Below, piece after piece: positions 1-48,160 of a stretch of 64,000 nt of DNA. Origin of the DNA: Thioalkalivibrio nitratireducens DSM 14787 (GTDB lineage Bacteria; Pseudomonadota; Gammaproteobacteria; Ectothiorhodospirales; Ectothiorhodospiraceae); assembly GCF_000321415.2 (NCBI RefSeq), contig NC_019902.2, positions 1,798,001-1,862,000 of the forward strand. The letters run 5' to 3'. The notes beneath the pieces are model-generated. The model did no database searches, was not told the DNA's origin, and saw nothing but the letters and a program-made list of their open reading frames with translations. Both the position numbers and the translations under genes were made by a program. The stretch's first letter is position 1, and each line of letters opens with the position of its first letter.

Positions 1-284
1 GTCGGAGGGAACTGGACGCGGACGGGGTGGTGGTCGACATCGCTCTGGCAGGCGCCCAGCTGGGGGCGGTGCTGGCCGGGATGAACTATCAGAACCTCGA
101 CGATCACCCCGACTTCGAAGGCCGCAACACGACCACCGAGTTCCTGGCCCGCGAGATCCATCAGCGTCTTGCCGATGCGATCCAGCGCGGCAAACTCGGC
201 CCATCCGCGTCGGGAATCGACGCCCTCTGCGTCACCCTGCACGAATCTCACGTGGCCTGGGCCAGTTTCGAAGGACCGCTTTGA
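1..284 (+). CDS. QueD/PTPS-like 6-carboxytetrahydropterin synthase family protein, 5' end outside window
   Basis: The reading frame is already open at the left edge, and only the last 93 or so residues are visible. They match the C-terminal half of the 6-pyruvoyl/6-carboxy-tetrahydropterin synthase fold: an ELDADGVVVDIA stretch, an LDDHPDF motif at the usual Asp-His position, and a terminal LHESHVAWASFEG segment with the conserved Glu. Family members act on dihydroneopterin triphosphate. QueD makes the queuosine precursor and PTPS makes tetrahydropterins. The zinc-binding histidines would lie upstream of the window, so activity cannot be checked. The stop overlaps the TTG start of the next gene by 4 bases (TTGA), so the two are probably cotranslated. 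Because it sits with a glycosyltransferase and a methyltransferase, I think a role in a modified pterin is as likely as queuosine synthesis. Confidence 0.82.
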   Translation, partial: RRELDADGVVVDIALAGAQLGAVLAGMNYQNLDDHPDFEGRNTTTEFLAREIHQRLADAIQRGKLGPSASGIDALCVTLHESHVAWASFEGPL

Positions 285-1347
285 CGCCGGCTACCTCGAC
301 CCTGCACCTGGTGGTTCCCGGCCCGCCGAATCAGCGAACCGGCGGCTACCTCTACGACGCACGCATGGCGGAAGGCCTGCGCGCGCTCGGGTGGCAGGTC
401 TTCGTTCACGGACTCGGTGGGCGTTTCCCGGGTCCGGATCCGGAGGCCGAACGTGCGCTGTCACGACTTCTCGCCGCGTTGCCCGATGGAGCGCCGGTGC
501 TGATCGACGGGCTGGCGCTCGGAGGTCTGCCCGACCCGCTGGCAGCGCACGCATCCAGGCTGCACCCGATCGCCCTGGTGCACCACCCCCTCCGTGACGA
601 AACCGGTCTGTCGCCCGCGCGCGCTGCAGAGTTGGAGTCACTCGAGCGCCGCGCCCTCGCTCACTGCCGTGGCGTGATCGTCAGCAGCCCCTACACCGCC
701 CGTCGGCTCCGGGCCTGGATACCGGACCGGATCGGTATTCGCTGCGTGCTGCCCGGTACCGCCGCGGCCATCGAGGCACCGGCCCCGGGTGCCCACGCGC
801 CCCCGCGCATCCTCTGCGTCGGAACGGTGATCCCCGCAAGGGCCAGGACCTGCTGGTGCGCGCGCTCACTGCGCTGCGCGACATCCCCTGGCACTGCGTG
901 ATTGCCGGCAGTCTGGAGAGGCACCCGGAATTTGCGCGCCAGGTACGGGAGCAGATCCGCCAGGCCGGGATCGACGACCGGGTGCACCTGGTCCGCGAAT
1001 GCACCTCGGCTCGACTCGAGTATCTGTACCACTCATCCGGTCTGTTCGTGCTGCCCTCCTGGTACGAGGGCTACGGCATGGCCTTTGCCGAGGCAATGGC
1101 TCACGGTCTGCCCGTGATCGGCACACATGGGGGCGCGATCCCGGATACCGTTCCGGCACACGCCGGAGTCCTTGTCGCCCCGGGGGATCTCGAAGCGCTG
1201 ACGCAGGCCCTTGCCGATCTCCTGCAGGATCCGTCGGCCCGCGCCCGTCTCGGCCAGGGGGCGCGGCGCCATGCCCGCACGCTGCCCGACTGGCCGGAGG
1301 TCGCGCAACGCCTCGCGTCGGCGATCCGGGAGCTGGCGGGACCATGA
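281..1347 (+). pseudogene. GT4-family glycosyltransferase, interrupted by a -1 frameshift
   Basis: Two adjacent frames together make one complete GT4 (GT-B) glycosyltransferase. The N-terminal frame starts at TTG 281 and carries the donor-independent half (LHLVVPGPPNQRTGGYLYD, with the usual GG loop). The C-terminal frame carries WHCVIAGSLERHPEF and the nucleotide-sugar motif EGYGMAFAEAMAHGLPVIG, followed by a conserved helix up to the stop at 1345-1347. Continuity breaks at the C run at 832-835. One extra C would read VIPRKGQDLLVRALTAL and restore the expected GT4 linker. The frame is therefore lost by a one-base deletion in a homopolymer, which is either a recent mutation or a sequencing error. 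The stop overlaps the methyltransferase start (ATGA). Such enzymes move a sugar from UDP- or GDP-sugar to an acceptor. The acceptor here is unknown but may be a pterin, given the neighbours. Confidence 0.8.
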
Positions 1348-2153
1348 GCAGCCGGTTCGAGGCGGACTGGCTGTCGCTGCGCGAACCCGCCGATCGACGC
1401 GCACGGTCGGCCAGATTGGTCGAGGGGTTCCGGGCCTGGAGTCGGGGCCGCGACCCCCTCCACGTCGTCGATCTCGGAGCGGGCACCGGCGCCAACCTGC
1501 GCTTTCTGGCCCCGCAGCTGCCGGTGCGACAATACTGGACGCTGATCGACCACGATCCTGCGCTGCTCGCGCGGGTGCATATCCCGGACCGAGGACCGAC
1601 CGTGCGCAGCGTTTGCGCCGACCTGCGCCAGTGGCGCGGCGTACTGGGCGAATCCCGGCTCCCGGACCTCGTCACCGCCGCCGCGCTATTGGATCTCGTG
1701 GGCGCGTCCTGGCTCGACGATCTGGTTCAGAGCTGCCGCGAAATGGGCGCGGCCGCCCTGTTCGCACTCAGCTACGACGGACGCCTGTGGGGGGCGCCGC
1801 CCGACCCCGACGACCGCGCCGTGAGGCGGGCGGTGAACGCCCACCAGCAGCGTGACAAGGGTCTGGGCCCCGCGCTGGGTCCCCGCGCCGCGGCGTGTGC
1901 CGCCGCAGGTTTCAGGGCCGCCGGATTTCGGGTTCTGATCGCGCGAAGCCCCTGGCATCTCGGCAGCGAGAGCGAAGAACTGGCCACCACGCTGATTCGC
2001 GGCTGGCTGGCGGCCGCCTGCGAGCAGGTTCCTGCCGATCGCGAACGCTACCGTGCATGGGCGCAGCGGCGGGAACGCGACATCCGCTCCGGACGCGTTC
2101 GGTTCTGCGTCGGCCACCTGGATCTGCTGGCGCTGCCATCGGTCGCTCCCTGA
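1344..2153 (+). CDS. class I SAM-dependent methyltransferase
   Basis: This 269-residue protein has the Rossmann-type SAM-binding motif I at about residues 41-49 (VVDLGAGTG), followed by an acidic LIDHDPALL strand end expected for motif II. The middle contains LVTAAALLDLVGASWLDDL, typical of small-molecule methyltransferases. The start ATG at 1344 lies in an ATGA overlap with the glycosyltransferase stop, so no separate ribosome site is needed. The last part is rich in Arg and Trp and shows no extra domain. Substrate cannot be read from sequence. Because it is third in a run with a QueD-like enzyme and a glycosyltransferase, it may methylate the product of that pathway. The gene converges with a RibD-like gene 78 bases further on. 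Confidence 0.8.
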   Translation: MSSRFEADWLSLREPADRRARSARLVEGFRAWSRGRDPLHVVDLGAGTGANLRFLAPQLPVRQYWTLIDHDPALLARVHIPDRGPTVRSVCADLRQWRGVLGESRLPDLVTAAALLDLVGASWLDDLVQSCREMGAAALFALSYDGRLWGAPPDPDDRAVRRAVNAHQQRDKGLGPALGPRAAACAAAGFRAAGFRVLIARSPWHLGSESEELATTLIRGWLAAACEQVPADRERYRAWAQRRERDIRSGRVRFCVGHLDLLALPSVAP

Positions 2154-2231
2154 CCCCGCCGAGGCTGCCTGGATACCGGGATCGCGCCCGTACGCGGGTC
2201 TTCCGCCGAGCCCTGGCGGACGCCGGCGCGG

Positions 2232-3029
2232 TCACGGGCGCAGGTCGAGGTCGAACAGCATGTCATTGCCGAGCGGGAAATAACGGCAGCGAGGACGTAG
2301 TGCCTGGTCCAGGCGGTCCACCGGGGGCAGGGTCAGAGAAGCGCGCCCCGAACCCAGCACCACCGGCGCCACGGTTACATGCAGCCGGTCGAGCACGCCG
2401 GCGGCGAGAAACCGCGAAACCGTGATGCCTCCGCCCTCGATCAAGACCCGCGGCAACCCGCGCTCTGCCAGCAGCCGCAGGATGTCCGCCGGCGCGAACC
2501 CGTCCTCTTCCCGTTCCTCCAGCGCGACCGTCTCCACCGACGGCGGTGCCGGCACCGACGGAGCGCGCCGAGCACTGCGCAACCACAGCGTCCGGGCTTC
2601 GGCATTCCGGAACACTCGGGCGCGGGGATCCACACGACCCGAGGGATCCAGAATCACCCGCACCGGGCTTGGTCCCACCACCTTGCGCACGGTCAGCAGC
2701 GGATCGTCGGCAGCGATCGTTCCGGCACCGACGACCACCGCGTCCACGAGTGCGCGCAGGCGGTGCAGGTGGCGGATGTCCTCGGGCCCGGTCACGTACC
2801 GGGAATGCCCGGTGCGGGTCGCGATATAGCCATCCAGGGTCTGCCCCAGCTGCGCGATTGCCAGCGTCTCGCAGGACGCGAGCGGAAGATAGATCTGCCA
2901 GAGCGACTCGATCCCGGATTGAGATCCGGCACCCGCGGGAGACACATTGCCGGACTTCGCCCCCGTGCGCCCGGGAACCCGGTCCAGGATCGCGCGCCAG
3001 GCGGCATCCTCGGGCGACCCCGGGCTCAT
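2232..3029 (-). CDS. stand-alone RibD C-terminal (pyrimidine reductase) domain protein
   Basis: A 265-residue protein with the dihydrofolate-reductase-like RibD_C fold. GQTLDGYIA (about 62-70) and GAGTIAADDPLLTVR (101-115) form the NADPH and substrate site, LIEGGG (196-201) is the glycine-rich cofactor loop, and APVVLGSGR (221-229) is near the end. Bacterial RibD normally has an N-terminal zinc deaminase, which is absent here. Instead there is a short extension of about 50 residues starting MSPGSPEDAAWRAIL. Stand-alone forms include the archaeal and fungal reductases that reduce the ribosyl chain of a diaminopyrimidine. It lies 73 bases after a creatininase-family gene. Its start has only a weak ribosome site. 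It may act on a GTP-derived pyrimidine outside normal riboflavin synthesis. A degraded RibD seems less likely because the fold is complete. Confidence 0.85.
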   Translation of the reverse strand: MSPGSPEDAAWRAILDRVPGRTGAKSGNVSPAGAGSQSGIESLWQIYLPLASCETLAIAQLGQTLDGYIATRTGHSRYVTGPEDIRHLHRLRALVDAVVVGAGTIAADDPLLTVRKVVGPSPVRVILDPSGRVDPRARVFRNAEARTLWLRSARRAPSVPAPPSVETVALEEREEDGFAPADILRLLAERGLPRVLIEGGGITVSRFLAAGVLDRLHVTVAPVVLGSGRASLTLPPVDRLDQALRPRCRYFPLGNDMLFDLDLRP

Positions 3030-3102
3030 CCGGGCCTACCGGTGGCCAAACCCGGACGCACGCCCCGGCGCCCCTCCTCTTGGTCCGAAGCAACGCGCGC
3101 GT

Positions 3103-3957
3103 TCATGCGACCGGCGGGCGCAGTGCCCCGAGCGGGAACGCCCGGGTCTCACGAATCACGCGTGCAATCGCGTCGCCGTAGTACGCGACGAGACGTGCGC
3201 CCAGCGCTGTGTCCGCCAGGCTCGCATCGCCGACCACACCCGATACGTGCAGATCCCGCGCCATCCAGGCGAACGAAGCCCGCCCCTCCGGACCCAGCAG
3301 TGCGAACTCGTGCTCGAGCCGCTGCCCGAGCGATCCGGTGTCCGGGCCGCCTTCGGCACGCACCGAATCGGGTGCGAGATGCAGCATCATCGCGGTCTCG
3401 ATGGCCCCGCCGTGCCACCCGTGCTGCAACTCGGTCGCGGGCAGACCGATGCCGTCCGGGTGCCCGAGTCGGAAGTAGCTGCACTTGACCACCAGCAGGC
3501 CATGGTCGCGCCGCAACCGAAGCGCCGCGAGATCCATGACCTGGGTATTGCCCCCATGGCTGTTGCAGAGGAGCAGCCGGCGTACCCCGCTCCGCGCTAC
3601 GGCTGCACCGTACTGCTCGATCACTGCCAGCGCAGTCTCCGGTTCGAGGCTCAGCGTTCCGGGAAAGCCGTCGTGTTCCATGCTGGTGCCGACCGCCAAC
3701 GGCGGCAGCACCCAGACCGCCACGTCGTCGCCGAGTGCGACCGCCGCGGTATCCAGCAGCCCGAGCCCGATTTCGAGATCGGTCGACAGGGGCAGTTGCG
3801 GCCCATGCTGCTCGATCGCCGCCAGCGGCAGGATCAAGACGGGATCCTGCGTCACAGCCGCGGCGATTTCGGGGCTGGTCATCTGCTGCCAGAGCGGAAA
3901 TCCGGTCGGCGTCATCAGCGCATGGTTCGTCTGCGATGCCGCGATGTCAAGCGCCAT
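3103..3957 (-). CDS. creatininase-family amidohydrolase
   Basis: From ATG 3957 the protein has 284 residues. It shows the metal site of the creatininase fold: AAIEQHGPQLPLSTD (about 46-60, supplying Glu, His and Asp), CNSHGGNTQV (131-140) and HGWHGGAIETAMML (179-192, with the conserved His and Glu). Family members include creatinine amidohydrolase, the mycofactocin peptidase MftE, and ArfB, the archaeal deformylase of the GTP-derived formamidopyrimidine in riboflavin and F420 synthesis. ATG 3957 overlaps the FkbM stop by 11 bases. An internal ATG at 3915 would remove the overlap, and neither has a clear ribosome site. The frame stays open much further upstream, but that part has no family similarity. 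Next to a RibD-type reductase, an ArfB-like deformylase role is the most attractive guess, though not proven. Confidence 0.87.
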   Translation of the reverse strand: MALDIAASQTNHALMTPTGFPLWQQMTSPEIAAAVTQDPVLILPLAAIEQHGPQLPLSTDLEIGLGLLDTAAVALGDDVAVWVLPPLAVGTSMEHDGFPGTLSLEPETALAVIEQYGAAVARSGVRRLLLCNSHGGNTQVMDLAALRLRRDHGLLVVKCSYFRLGHPDGIGLPATELQHGWHGGAIETAMMLHLAPDSVRAEGGPDTGSLGQRLEHEFALLGPEGRASFAWMARDLHVSGVVGDASLADTALGARLVAYYGDAIARVIRETRAFPLGALRPPVA

Positions 3958-4732
3958 GCCCGGGCCAACTGCCGGCACGTGCGGGTTGCAGCCGCGCATA
4001 CAGGTCTCCGGACGCGATACCCCCTGCGCCCGCTTCCAGCCAGGCTGCCAGCGCGTCCGGTGGCCGCCACCCGCGAAACAGGAATTCGCGCCGCTCGCCG
4101 GGGATTGCGTTGAACGCATAAGGGCCGAGTTCGGCGAGGCGGCGCACACTGTCCCGGGCGACCTCGAGTGCACCGGACACGAACTCCAGCGAAAGCGCGG
4201 GCAACGGCCGGCTGAGACCGGCCAGCACCTCCGCCTCGAAGCCTTCGACATCGAGCTTGCAGAAATCCGGTACCCCGTACTCCCGGATCAAGGCGTCGAG
4301 AGTGGTGACCTCGACGGAGACAGTCCGGTCCCAGGCCACACGACGGAACGAGCGGTTGCGACGGCTGAGCCCTTCCTGCCAGTCAGCCGAAAGCGTCGAC
4401 ACCGTCGGATGCAGGCGGCTGATCGCGAGCCGCGCCTGCCCGGCAGCACGTCCCACCGCTTGCGGGCGAACCACGACCGACGGGTGTGACCCCACGAGAC
4501 GCCGCAGCCAGCGCTCGAGCTGCGGCTGCGGCTCGAGCGCGACGACGCGGGCCCCGAGGTCCGCAAAGGCCCGGGTGCGGTCGCCCAGATGGGCGCCGAT
4601 GTCGAAGACCAGACCGCCCGCGGGGACGAACGGTTGGTAGAGACGGCGCAGCGATCGCTGCCGGCCCGGACGCCAGTAGATCACCAGCGAGCGGAGGATG
4701 CCGAACCCGGTCTGCCAGTCGTGCCGCGCCAT
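3947..4732 (-). CDS. FkbM-family methyltransferase
   Basis: A 261-residue SAM-dependent methyltransferase of the FkbM type. Motif I is LVFDIGAHLGDRT at about 41-53, the acidic residue that binds the ribose is in VVALEPQP (63-70), and the family hallmark CKLDVEGFEAEVLAG is at 158-172. FkbM enzymes O-methylate sugars, macrolides and lipids. The start ATG at 4732 is chosen because the long upstream open frame runs into galU on the same strand and shows no similarity. It lies 53 bases after the galU stop and overlaps the creatininase gene. Position between galU and the creatininase gene suggests that a sugar-bearing product is methylated, but surface polysaccharide modification is an equal possibility. 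Confidence 0.87.
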   Translation of the reverse strand: MARHDWQTGFGILRSLVIYWRPGRQRSLRRLYQPFVPAGGLVFDIGAHLGDRTRAFADLGARVVALEPQPQLERWLRRLVGSHPSVVVRPQAVGRAAGQARLAISRLHPTVSTLSADWQEGLSRRNRSFRRVAWDRTVSVEVTTLDALIREYGVPDFCKLDVEGFEAEVLAGLSRPLPALSLEFVSGALEVARDSVRRLAELGPYAFNAIPGERREFLFRGWRPPDALAAWLEAGAGGIASGDLYARLQPARAGSWPGHGA

Positions 4733-4785
4733 GTTGGCCGGGAAAATCCCCTGGTTGCGCGCCGCGGACGTCCGACGGTGCGAGG

Positions 4786-5673
4786 TCAGGCTCTTCTTGC
4801 GTCCAGATAGGCCTTGAAATCTTCGCTCAACTCCGGGTGCTGGAGGGCGAATTCGACGGTCGCCTGCAGATACCCCAGCTTGCTTCCGCAATCGAAACGC
4901 CTGCCCGAGAATTCGAAGGCGGTGACACGCTCTTGCTCCAGCAGGCGGGCAATCGCGTCGGTCAGTTGGATCTCGCCTCCCGCTCCGGGCTCCTGCGCCT
5001 TCAGCAACTCGAAAATGCGGGGCGTCAGCACGTAGCGGCCCACGACGGCCATGCTGGAGGGAGCGTCCTCGGGCCGGGGTTTCTCGACGATCCCCTTCAC
5101 GTCCCACAGGCCCGGGGTATCGGTCGCCACCGGGTCGATCACGCCGTACTTGCCGGTGTCCTGCCGCGGCACCTCCTCCACCCCCAGCACGCTGCACTGG
5201 GTGTCGTTGAACTGCTCGACCATCTGCGCCAGCGCACCGCCCCGCTCGCTTTCAATCAGGTCGTCGGCGAGGATCACCGCAAAGGGTTCGTGTTGCACGA
5301 TCGGCCGGGCGCAGCCGACCGCGTGGCCGAGGCCGAGGGCATCCGCCTGCCGAACATATACGCAGGTCACCTCGGGCGGGAGGATGTTTCGAACCAGTTC
5401 CAGCATCCGGGTCTTGCCCCGCTGTTCCAGTTCGCTTTCGAGTTCGTAGGCCTTGTCGAAATGATCCGGAATCGAGCGCTTGTTGCGTCCAGTCACGAAC
5501 ACCAGTGTCTCGATTCCCGCCGCGACCGCCTCTTCCGCTGCATACTGGATCAAGGGCTTGTCGACGATCGGCAGCATCTCTTTCGGATTCGCCTTGGTCG
5601 CCGGCAGGAAGCGCGTGCCCATCCCTGCGACGGGAAAAACCGCCATGCGAATACGCTGCTCATTCTTCGTCAT
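4786..5673 (-). CDS. galU: UTP-glucose-1-phosphate uridylyltransferase
   Basis: A 295-residue nucleotidyltransferase that makes UDP-glucose from UTP and glucose 1-phosphate in the cytoplasm. The signature [19 protein letters not shown] spans about 14-32, with the catalytic Lys and Arg. It continues with [33 protein letters not shown] and the C-terminal [15 protein letters not shown]. Length and motifs match bacterial GalU throughout. UDP-glucose feeds glycosyltransferases and the UDP-sugar dehydrogenases, so it can supply the GT4 enzyme at the left end. It may head an operon with FkbM, the creatininase and the RibD-like gene, since gaps are small and all lie on one strand. Confidence 0.96.
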
Positions 5674-45533: not shown

Positions 45534-45893
45534 GGGGACGACATGGCTTCGACGTGGGTCACGAAACCTGAGGTGCATGCCGAGGCTGTAGCTGACCTCG
45601 TAAAAACGGCTGCAAACCAATAGTTGCCAACGACGACAACTACGCACTCGCCGCTTAAAACCCGGTAGGGTGCCGTCCGACTGGAGCCGCGCCTGCGCGT
45701 CCAGACCCGGGCGTCGATCTCGCAGGATCGTGGAGAAGCTTCCCGGGGCGGATCCACTAAAACTCAACCGGGATCGCTGGTGGTCTTCCCTGCCCGTCGG
45801 GTAGCCACCAGTTAAAACAAAGACGCGGATAAGCATGTAGAGCCGAGGGCGGAGGTCTTGCGGACGCGGGTTCGATTCCCGCCGTCTCCACCA
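45534..45893 (+). ncRNA. ssrA: transfer-messenger RNA (tmRNA)
   Basis: One-piece tmRNA of 360 bases. It begins GGGGACGACATGGCTTCGAC, has the resume codon GCC after ATAGTT (45626), and codes for the tag ANDDNYALAA ending in TAA at 45656-45658. It ends with a T-arm GGGTTCGATTCCC and encoded CCA at 45891-45893. The tag differs from the usual ANDENYALAA by one Glu to Asp change, with the AA C-terminus for ClpXP kept. A TAGACT at 45512-45517 may be the -10. It rescues stalled ribosomes with SmpB. Confidence 0.97.
45862..45881 (+). repeat. possible att half-site inside tmRNA T-arm
   Basis: GGACGCGGGTTCGATTCCCG at the 3' end of ssrA is repeated with one change at 47557-47576. The ends of tmRNA genes are common island insertion points. 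Confidence 0.45.
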
Positions 45894-47416: not shown

Positions 47417-48160
47417 GCGGAGATTATGGGCTGCATTCTCCGTACACGCAAGTCTTTCGCCGCAAAAAATGCGGAGAAAGGTGGCGCCAATCGCCGCACG
47501 ACGGGTCGCCTCATCTCGAAATGGGTCTGAATGGGTGTGCTGTTGGTCGGGGCGACGGACACGGGTTCGATTCCCGTTTCGGGATTACCACTGGCCTCGA
47601 AAAACAGACGGGTTTGAGCGGCCTTTCCGACCACCAATCAGAGCGGAAAATCTGCCCGATTGTCCGCGCAGCCGAATGGGCTTCATAGCACCCACCCCAC
47701 TTCCTTAGCGGAGCATGGGCTGGATTGGCCCGCAACCGAACCGGGCGCGATGAGCCCCTGCCACGTGGCTGTGCACGCGGAGGGGCAATGCCGCCAGCGG
47801 AGCCCTCGCCTGGACCGCAAACTGCTGCATTTGGCTCAGCAGCTACCCATGGGCATGTCAAATGCACCATCTTACCGGGTGTTCGACGCTTGCAACCCCA
47901 GCGTGACCGCCATCCGGGTTACTGGCATGGTTTCTGCTTTTGGTTCGGGGCGTTGCTGGCCGTCAGGTGGCATGCAATGGGCAAGTCATTCGCCTTGCTG
48001 TTCCCGATCATGGTGTCCCCCATCGCGGATCGTGCTCTACGGGATACCTGCCCCTGTGCCGCCTGCCAGCCCGCACCCCTGCGCGCGGAATGCTACGAGC
48101 CGCATCTCCCGCTCGCACCCAGCCGCGGCTACACAATCATCAACAAAACGGAGAACCGTT
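47417..48160. other. gap between fic and the DsrE-like gene
   Basis: No gene is supported. The only notable parts are the tmRNA-like T-arm at 47557-47576 and a weak sigma-54-like site near 47923-47938. The remainder shows nothing I recognise. Confidence 0.5.
47557..47576 (+). repeat. copy of the tmRNA T-arm, possible att half-site
   Basis: GGACACGGGTTCGATTCCCG matches 45862-45881 at 19 of 20 bases in the same orientation. Acceptor-like TCTCGAA (47514-47520) and TTCGGGA (47578-47584) flank it, but no anticodon arm is found, so it is not a whole tRNA. Confidence 0.45.

Follow-up and report, generated by a model that had tools for sequence, protein, structure and literature searches.

What does a gene cluster make when its most recognizable enzyme resembles a protein of queuosine synthesis and has lost that protein's active site? 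The question is raised by one end of a 64,000-nucleotide stretch of Thioalkalivibrio nitratireducens DSM 14787 (the window; positions 1,798,001-1,862,000 of a genome that forms one contig of 4,002,350 bases), where a plus-strand run of genes that starts upstream of the window, for a dehydrogenase, a PTPS-family protein, a GT4 glycosyltransferase and an S-adenosylmethionine (SAM)-dependent methyltransferase converges on minus-strand genes for a RibD_C-type reductase, a creatininase-fold protein and an FkbM methyltransferase. A reading made from the sequence alone had named the families inside the window and placed them in one pathway; Pfam searches, on which our family calls for the window genes rest, find every family where that reading had put it. 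On balance, and with confidence only a little above even, we regard this locus as one case of a widespread cluster centered on the PTPS-IV subfamily, which would encode a dedicated pathway from guanosine triphosphate (GTP) via a diaminopyrimidine to a pteridine that is subsequently glycosylated and methylated. Because the QueD look-alike has lost the active site of that enzyme, the cluster probably makes a compound that has yet to be described.

Identity of the PTPS-family protein

In canonical PTPS-family enzymes, a cysteine serves as the catalytic residue and histidines bind zinc. We read these positions in 109 PTPS-IV sequences by alignment with the source genome's second PTPS-family protein, which has the CxxxHGH motif; the alignment has gaps around the catalytic Asp and His. 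The Cys of the motif and the second His of HGH are Ala in 109/109 sequences; the first zinc His (108/109, with one gap), the first HGH His (109/109) and a near-terminal Glu (109/109) are kept. CxxxHGH is the motif by which QueD (PTPS-I) is defined in the available part of PMC5041015, and it is intact in the source genome's own second copy and in all 12 fetched sequences among 13 weak second PTPS matches; one genome with such a second match (G048) is without PTPS-IV. Moreover, the gene product reaches 39.6 bits against an NCBIfam QueD cut-off of 89.25, and no queuosine neighborhood surrounds its gene, the sole QueC match of the genome lying at 3,482,943, 1.7 Mb away (the search did not include QueE). 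Judged from these residues and scores, the protein has lost the QueD active site and is not QueD. The sequence-only reading would have been refuted by a copy that clearly belonged to queuosine synthesis, which this one does not; its view of the protein as a QueD-type enzyme with dihydroneopterin triphosphate as substrate finds no support. That the gene is nonetheless queuosine's QueD, or that its neighbors lie together by chance, is scarcely credible: such a view can point to membership of the PTPS/QueD superfamily, and it is opposed by the lost catalytic Cys and zinc His, the low score, the CxxxHGH copy elsewhere in the genome, the distant QueC, and a linkage far over that of control regions (see below).

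The protein is assigned to PTPS-IV because it carries the FGPAQ signature described for this subfamily of COG0720 (cluster-node 62) in the accessible portion of PMC5445326; across our set G, P, A and Q are present in 109/109 sequences and F in 108/109, the exception being a gap. According to the same portion, PTPS-IV genes neighbor PF00925 and PF01872, and the combination of this subfamily with PF00925 and RibD_C (PF01872) is thus already published. PF00925 is called GTP cyclohydrolase I (FolE2) there, whereas it is GTP cyclohydrolase II here, which is also Pfam's name. Both partners recur in our data: RibD_C lies in the window and near 16 of 18 independently gathered loci, and RibA2 (PF00925) near 7 of these 18 and 47 of a further 80. 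Beyond these two partners, the present neighborhoods also hold a dehydrogenase, GT4, a methyltransferase, a cytidine diphosphate (CDP)-alcohol transferase, a flippase and a creatininase.

Among solved structures only 3D7J, Streptomyces coelicolor SCO6650, comes close, and it matches over its whole length (E 7.8e-63 with the PTPS-IV profile, E 1e-77 with a Streptomyces relative). Spoonamore and colleagues, in 2008, reportedly found SCO6650 to be devoid of zinc, catalytic triad and PTPS activity, with a pocket that could accommodate a pterin-like ligand. A different role, in F420 synthesis, is stated for PTPS-IV in the available text of PMC5041015, which cites unpublished work. CofH is indeed present in all three Actinomycetota genomes tested, but these are the only ones to exceed its cut-off among 24 PTPS-IV genomes (0/20 in Pseudomonadota, none in the Gemmatimonadota genome; G292 has a split match under the cut-off), so that we hold a function in F420 synthesis to be highly improbable.

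Conservation of the neighborhood

Within the genus, relatives with an intact locus share the gene order of the source genome. A flippase-like gene (LPG_synthase_TM) stands between the methyltransferase and RibD_C in 8 of the 9 clade-1 relatives covering the spot and is missing from it in the source genome and L034. Other members have split clusters, with FkbM and creatininase together, RibA2 and RibD_C paired, and the PTPS gene elsewhere; of the 16 Thioalkalivibrio genomes whose RibA2 is full length, 15 have it adjacent to RibD_C. PTPS-IV itself occurs in 27/29 genus genomes, being absent from G019 and G028 (77% and 58% complete), and the corresponding counts are 29/30 for creatininase, 27/30 for RibD_C above 160 bits and 16/30 for full-length RibA2.

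Beyond the genus, a scan that took a single genome from each species returned at least 559 confirmed stretches, of which the best 80 were taken as loci; this set is therefore biased, and two of its stretches may share one locus. Assigned from record titles, the 80 loci lie in Pseudomonadota, Actinomycetota, Gemmatimonadota and Acidobacteriota. The dehydrogenase is near all 80 loci (56 of the 56 that are full length), followed by GT4 at 78 (56), the methyltransferase at 71 (56), the CDP-alcohol transferase at 71 (52), the flippase-like protein at 57 (45), RibA2 at 47 (36), creatininase at 43 (37), RibD_C at 40 (29) and FkbM at 17 (13). One creatininase count takes in four distant homologues (L063-L066). 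In these four loci the creatininase-family gene has, as labeled by eye, transport genes (substrate-binding protein, permease, ATPase) on one side and a glutamine-synthetase-like gene on the other; it belongs to another system.

A second set was gathered regardless of neighbors. PTPS-IV was found in 19 of 299 Pseudomonadota genomes, and removal of the source genome leaves 18, which represent 14 genera other than that of the window. All 18 loci have the dehydrogenase and GT4, and 16 each have this methyltransferase and RibD_C; the two without the methyltransferase have one of another family beside GT4 instead, and one of the two without RibD_C (L149) ends at a contig end. RibA2, the CDP-alcohol transferase and the flippase-like protein are near 7 each, FkbM near 4 and creatininase near 2. 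The genus and 80-locus sets served to train the ten core profiles, and the 18-genome set was kept out of training; the profiles for OpgH, OpgG, sulfatase and the second methyltransferase were built from the loci that they count. Across 20 control regions of 20 kb, hand-picked from seven genomes, 13 profiles gave no match except one to the CDP-alcohol transferase at 35.7 bits. The neighborhood is therefore conserved and its clustering exceeds chance; the lack of a conserved neighborhood in related genomes, by which the sequence-only reading would have been refuted, is not what these genomes show. The picture that this reading gave of a conserved cluster that joins a GTP-to-pyrimidine side to tailoring enzymes likewise gains support from these linkage counts.

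Two members drop out of that picture. GalU, which the sequence-only reading had included, was considered as a supplier of uridine diphosphate (UDP)-glucose and rejected as no more than a housekeeping neighbor: it is near 2/80 loci (both of the window's genus), 3/18 (all of one genus) and 1/20 control regions, and its place beside the PTPS-IV cluster is probably incidental. FkbM, taken by the same reading for a core gene, is accessory on the counts above.

The GTP-to-pyrimidine genes

RibA2 is a GTP cyclohydrolase II, scoring over the NCBIfam cut-off. The source genome has two GTP cyclohydrolase II matches, one of RibBA type at 2,962,361, with a RibD-like match about 2 kb from it, and one at 1,274,772. 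The latter (L147) is a second, distant GTP cyclohydrolase II, and six other genus genomes have partial matches resembling it. Two ideas about this enzyme were discarded. It is not an obligatory part of the cluster, as 14 of the 30 genus genomes are without full-length RibA2, the source genome and 13 more, several of them incomplete; nor does copy number serve as a marker, with one to three copies in both the 19 PTPS-IV genomes (mean 2.3) and 18 others (mean 1.8), which are not clearly separated. The guess of a GTP cyclohydrolase upstream of the window thus held in part: a type II enzyme is found in the clusters of many relatives and not in that of the source genome.

With SCO6650 as the PTPS protein, gene order in the Streptomyces loci leads us to take RibA2 to be SCO6655. 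This enzyme, in the 2006 work of Spoonamore, is said to release the formamide and not the diaminopyrimidine because Met takes the place of Tyr105 of the Escherichia coli enzyme. In an alignment of RibA2 from 37 Actinomycetota loci, the position is Met in 22, His in 6, Tyr in 8 and Ser in 1. A creatininase-fold gene accompanies 28/28 RibA2 genes of the Met/His type, 0/8 of the Tyr type and 0/1 of the Ser type, the lone Ser-type protein looking degenerate; it lies about 5-6 kb from RibA2 in five of the 28 Met/His loci and nearer in the rest. RibD_C shows the opposite distribution (2/28 Met/His-type loci versus 8/8 Tyr-type). Fisher's test for the Tyr/creatininase link gives p 2e-7, which is not independent evidence because the RibA2 tree (56 rows, after seven near-identical ones were dropped from 63) offers only two independent pairs, one concordant and one without difference. 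Outside Actinomycetota, RibA2 has Tyr in 26/26 loci, a count that excludes the source genome's own distant GTP cyclohydrolase II, and creatininase is present in 17 of them, 9 of these in Thioalkalivibrio.

The actinobacterial pattern fits deformylation by the creatininase-fold protein, a candidate deformylase. A bacterial precedent is given in the accessible part of PMC9478397, where the same compound is deformylated by Sinorhizobium meliloti BrbF, a protein with a creatininase annotation. The likeness to this route and to that of ArfA/ArfB consists in a cyclohydrolase that lacks the deformylation Tyr standing beside a creatininase-fold protein in Actinomycetota; the differences are a cyclohydrolase of type II rather than III and a context of PTPS-IV, GT4 and methyltransferase rather than riboflavin. 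The nearest solved chains of the creatininase-fold protein are creatinine amidohydrolases, and it stays under every NCBIfam cut-off; with the ArfB model, whose cut-off is 180 bits, four members score 19.6, 38.2, 33.7 and 26.7.

The reductase of the window shares the RibD_C domain with RibD and with the archaeal and fungal diamino-ribosylamino-pyrimidinone phosphate reductases, and differs from RibD in being without a deaminase domain. Its nearest solved chains are 6p8c, a diamino-ribosylamino-pyrimidinone phosphate reductase, and 2azn, and it falls under the cut-offs of ribD_Cterm (130.8 against 150.15 bits), RibD (110.1 against 156.35) and the archaeal reductase (105.1 against 186.45). As RibA2 and RibD_C are riboflavin-type enzymes, and BrbF-type deformylases work in riboflavin synthesis (PMC9478397, in the part available), the cluster might instead feed or modify flavins, these two enzymes boosting riboflavin supply and the other genes glycosylating or methylating the flavin. 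Yet the steadiest partners are PTPS-IV, the dehydrogenase, GT4 and the methyltransferase, the RibD_C protein lacks the deaminase domain and the score of RibD, and the source genome has its separate RibBA-type and RibD-like matches; a flavin pathway therefore strikes us as quite improbable.

Tailoring enzymes and envelope-type neighbors

The sequence-only reading had guessed at an unseen dehydrogenase upstream of the window, and a BchC-like dehydrogenase indeed stands just before the PTPS gene. BchC, a bacteriochlorophyllide dehydrogenase, is its best match at 53.1 bits, against an NCBIfam cut-off of 291.25, and no photosynthesis context was seen around the PTPS-IV cluster. In 108 sequences, the Cys column of zinc dehydrogenases holds Ser in 101, Thr in 5, Gly in 1, a gap in 1 and Cys in none, and the GHE motif is found in 2; the label of zinc-binding dehydrogenase is doubtful because all 108 are without that Cys.

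The GT4 family given in the sequence-only reading and the overlaps of the gene with both neighbors are borne out, with TTGA at 281-284 (PTPS/GT4) and ATGA at 1344-1347 (GT4/methyltransferase), but the gene is not one open frame: it is split over two open reading frames (ORFs), an N-terminal part at 281-901 and a C-terminal part at 856-1347. Since all 10 relatives from the genus and family whose sequence covers GT4 have it as a single frame, the break reflects either genuine damage to the gene or a sequence error, here in the source genome. GT4 and the methyltransferase are fused in one frame in five loci (L058, L152, L153, L155 and L156).

The motif DxxDGxxAR...GxxxDxxxD of the CDP-alcohol transferase is intact in 87/87 sequences. 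Other envelope-type genes are also found near PTPS-IV, namely sulfatase-like (23/80, 3/18), OpgH, a periplasmic glucan glucosyltransferase (9/80, 9/18), and OpgG (6/80, 3/18), with 0/20 in controls; the sulfatase-like copy of L163 passes Pfam and that of L072 has no Pfam match. OpgH was seen in L153, L156, L157, L158, L161, L162, L164, L165 and L166, and OpgG in L152, L153 and L156. Seven of the eleven loci of the 18-genome set that are without CDP-alcohol transferase and flippase have OpgH. A small cytochrome b561-like membrane protein, read by eye, lies near RibD_C or RibA2 in the alphaproteobacterial-type loci L157, L158, L162, L165 and L166.

These neighbors suggest that in some lineages the product is bound for a lipid or for periplasmic glucan. 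Decoration of an envelope glycolipid or periplasmic glucan could even be the main purpose of the cluster, with a pteridine-like part as head group. The frequencies of the CDP-alcohol transferase and the flippase-like protein, together with those of the sulfatase-like protein, OpgH and OpgG and controls empty but for the one weak CDP-alcohol-transferase match, speak for this possibility; however, those eleven loci have neither transferase nor flippase nearby, and OpgH and OpgG are in an overall minority and were counted with profiles built from the same loci. We consider it doubtful.

Proposed pathway

The proposal of a dedicated pathway from GTP to a glycosylated, methylated pteridine starts from what computation yields: the families, their linkage, the loss of the QueD active site, the GT4-methyltransferase fusion and the Tyr/creatininase pattern. 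Its early steps would follow, by analogy, the known chemistry of the families concerned. GTP would be opened by GTP cyclohydrolase II, encoded by RibA2 in the cluster of many relatives and acting in trans here. Wherever the cyclohydrolase goes no further than the formamide, removal of formate would fall to the creatininase-fold protein. RibD_C, where present, would reduce the ribosyl side chain of diamino-ribosylamino-pyrimidinone phosphate to the ribityl form. The T-fold PTPS-IV protein, which lacks the catalytic site usual in its superfamily, may then act with the BchC-like dehydrogenase to rework the side chain, close the pteridine ring, or both, after which GT4 and the SAM methyltransferase, as a pair, would glycosylate and methylate the product. 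In many lineages the CDP-alcohol phosphatidyltransferase and the flippase-like protein may attach this product to a lipid and move it outward. The order of steps, ring closure, lipid attachment and the nature of the product, a pterin or a pyrimidine, are what we infer from these data.

Several observations weigh against this pathway. RibA2 is not in the source genome's cluster, so that this genome would need a cyclohydrolase II in trans, and a dedicated GTP cyclohydrolase II is not obligatory, because the PTPS-IV genomes G354 and G357 have a single copy. RibD_C is missing from 26 of the 28 Met/His-type actinobacterial loci, and creatininase is rare in the 18-genome set. Non-Tyr RibA2 may have arisen once or twice, which would make its link to creatininase perhaps one event, and Tyr-type RibA2 does occur with creatininase outside Actinomycetota. 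The creatininase-fold protein of the window, at 19.6 bits, is far under the ArfB cut-off. The CDP-alcohol transferase and the flippase are near a mere 7 of the 18 loci. With GT4 broken, the pathway may not work in this strain, and both the product and the activities of the PTPS-IV cluster are predictions.

A bolder version, for several phyla, would have the CDP-alcohol transferase join a GTP-derived (by cyclohydrolase II, not I) glycosylated and methylated pteridine or diaminopyrimidine to a phospholipid. The conjugate would next be flipped to the outside and, in certain lineages, handed on to periplasmic glucans; this full sequence of events we judge unlikely.

Gene layout

Coordinates of the cluster are collected in Table 1, with start codons picked by comparison with relatives. 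The window opens within the PTPS-IV gene, its positions 1-284 covering the 3' two thirds. It also contains a transfer-messenger RNA (tmRNA) gene with the tag ANDDNYALAA (45534-45893) and a tRNA-Pro gene (47513-47586), both ordinary.

Table 1. Genes of the PTPS-IV cluster and its neighbor in T. nitratireducens. Positions are those of the window unless given on stretch L003 (window position = L003 position − 12000).
Feature	Position	Strand	Basis
CDP-alcohol phosphatidyltransferase, upstream of window	L003 9857-10633	−	Pfam, over cut-off
BchC-like dehydrogenase, upstream of window	L003 10789-11772	+	Best NCBIfam match BchC
PTPS-IV protein	Start L003 11886 (115 bases before window base 1), end window 284	+	Pfam PTPS
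GT4 glycosyltransferase, frameshifted near 835-855	281-1347	+	Pfam on both pieces
Class I SAM methyltransferase	1344-2153	+	Pfam Methyltransf_25
RibD_C-type reductase, stand-alone, without deaminase domain	2232-3029	−	Pfam RibD_C
Creatininase-fold amidohydrolase, candidate deformylase	3103-3915	−	Pfam Creatininase
FkbM-family methyltransferase, accessory	3947-4732	−	Pfam and NCBIfam
GalU-like nucleotidyltransferase	4786-5673	−	Pfam NTP_transferase

Significance

In a partial literature search, no description of the wider cluster, its deformylase link, the pathway or the product turned up. By gene order, SCO6652 is presumably the methyltransferase of the S. coelicolor cluster. In the available parts of two expression studies, SCO6655 is among the S. 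coelicolor genes that are anticorrelated with predicted flux and mostly rise in stationary phase (PMC2853524), and SCO6652 is listed in a table comparing mycelial stages (PMC3610822); both listings are weak hints.

The proposed pathway spans several phyla and is probably encoded in hundreds of genomes, those of Streptomyces among them, and one of its proteins (SCO6650) has a solved structure. The core gene set, the misfit of the QueD and zinc-dehydrogenase labels, and the tie between Tyr-less cyclohydrolase II and creatininase turn an orphan family into a testable pathway in model organisms. If the bolder version is true, its glycosylated, methylated and lipid-coupled pteridine or diaminopyrimidine would represent a new class of envelope molecule.

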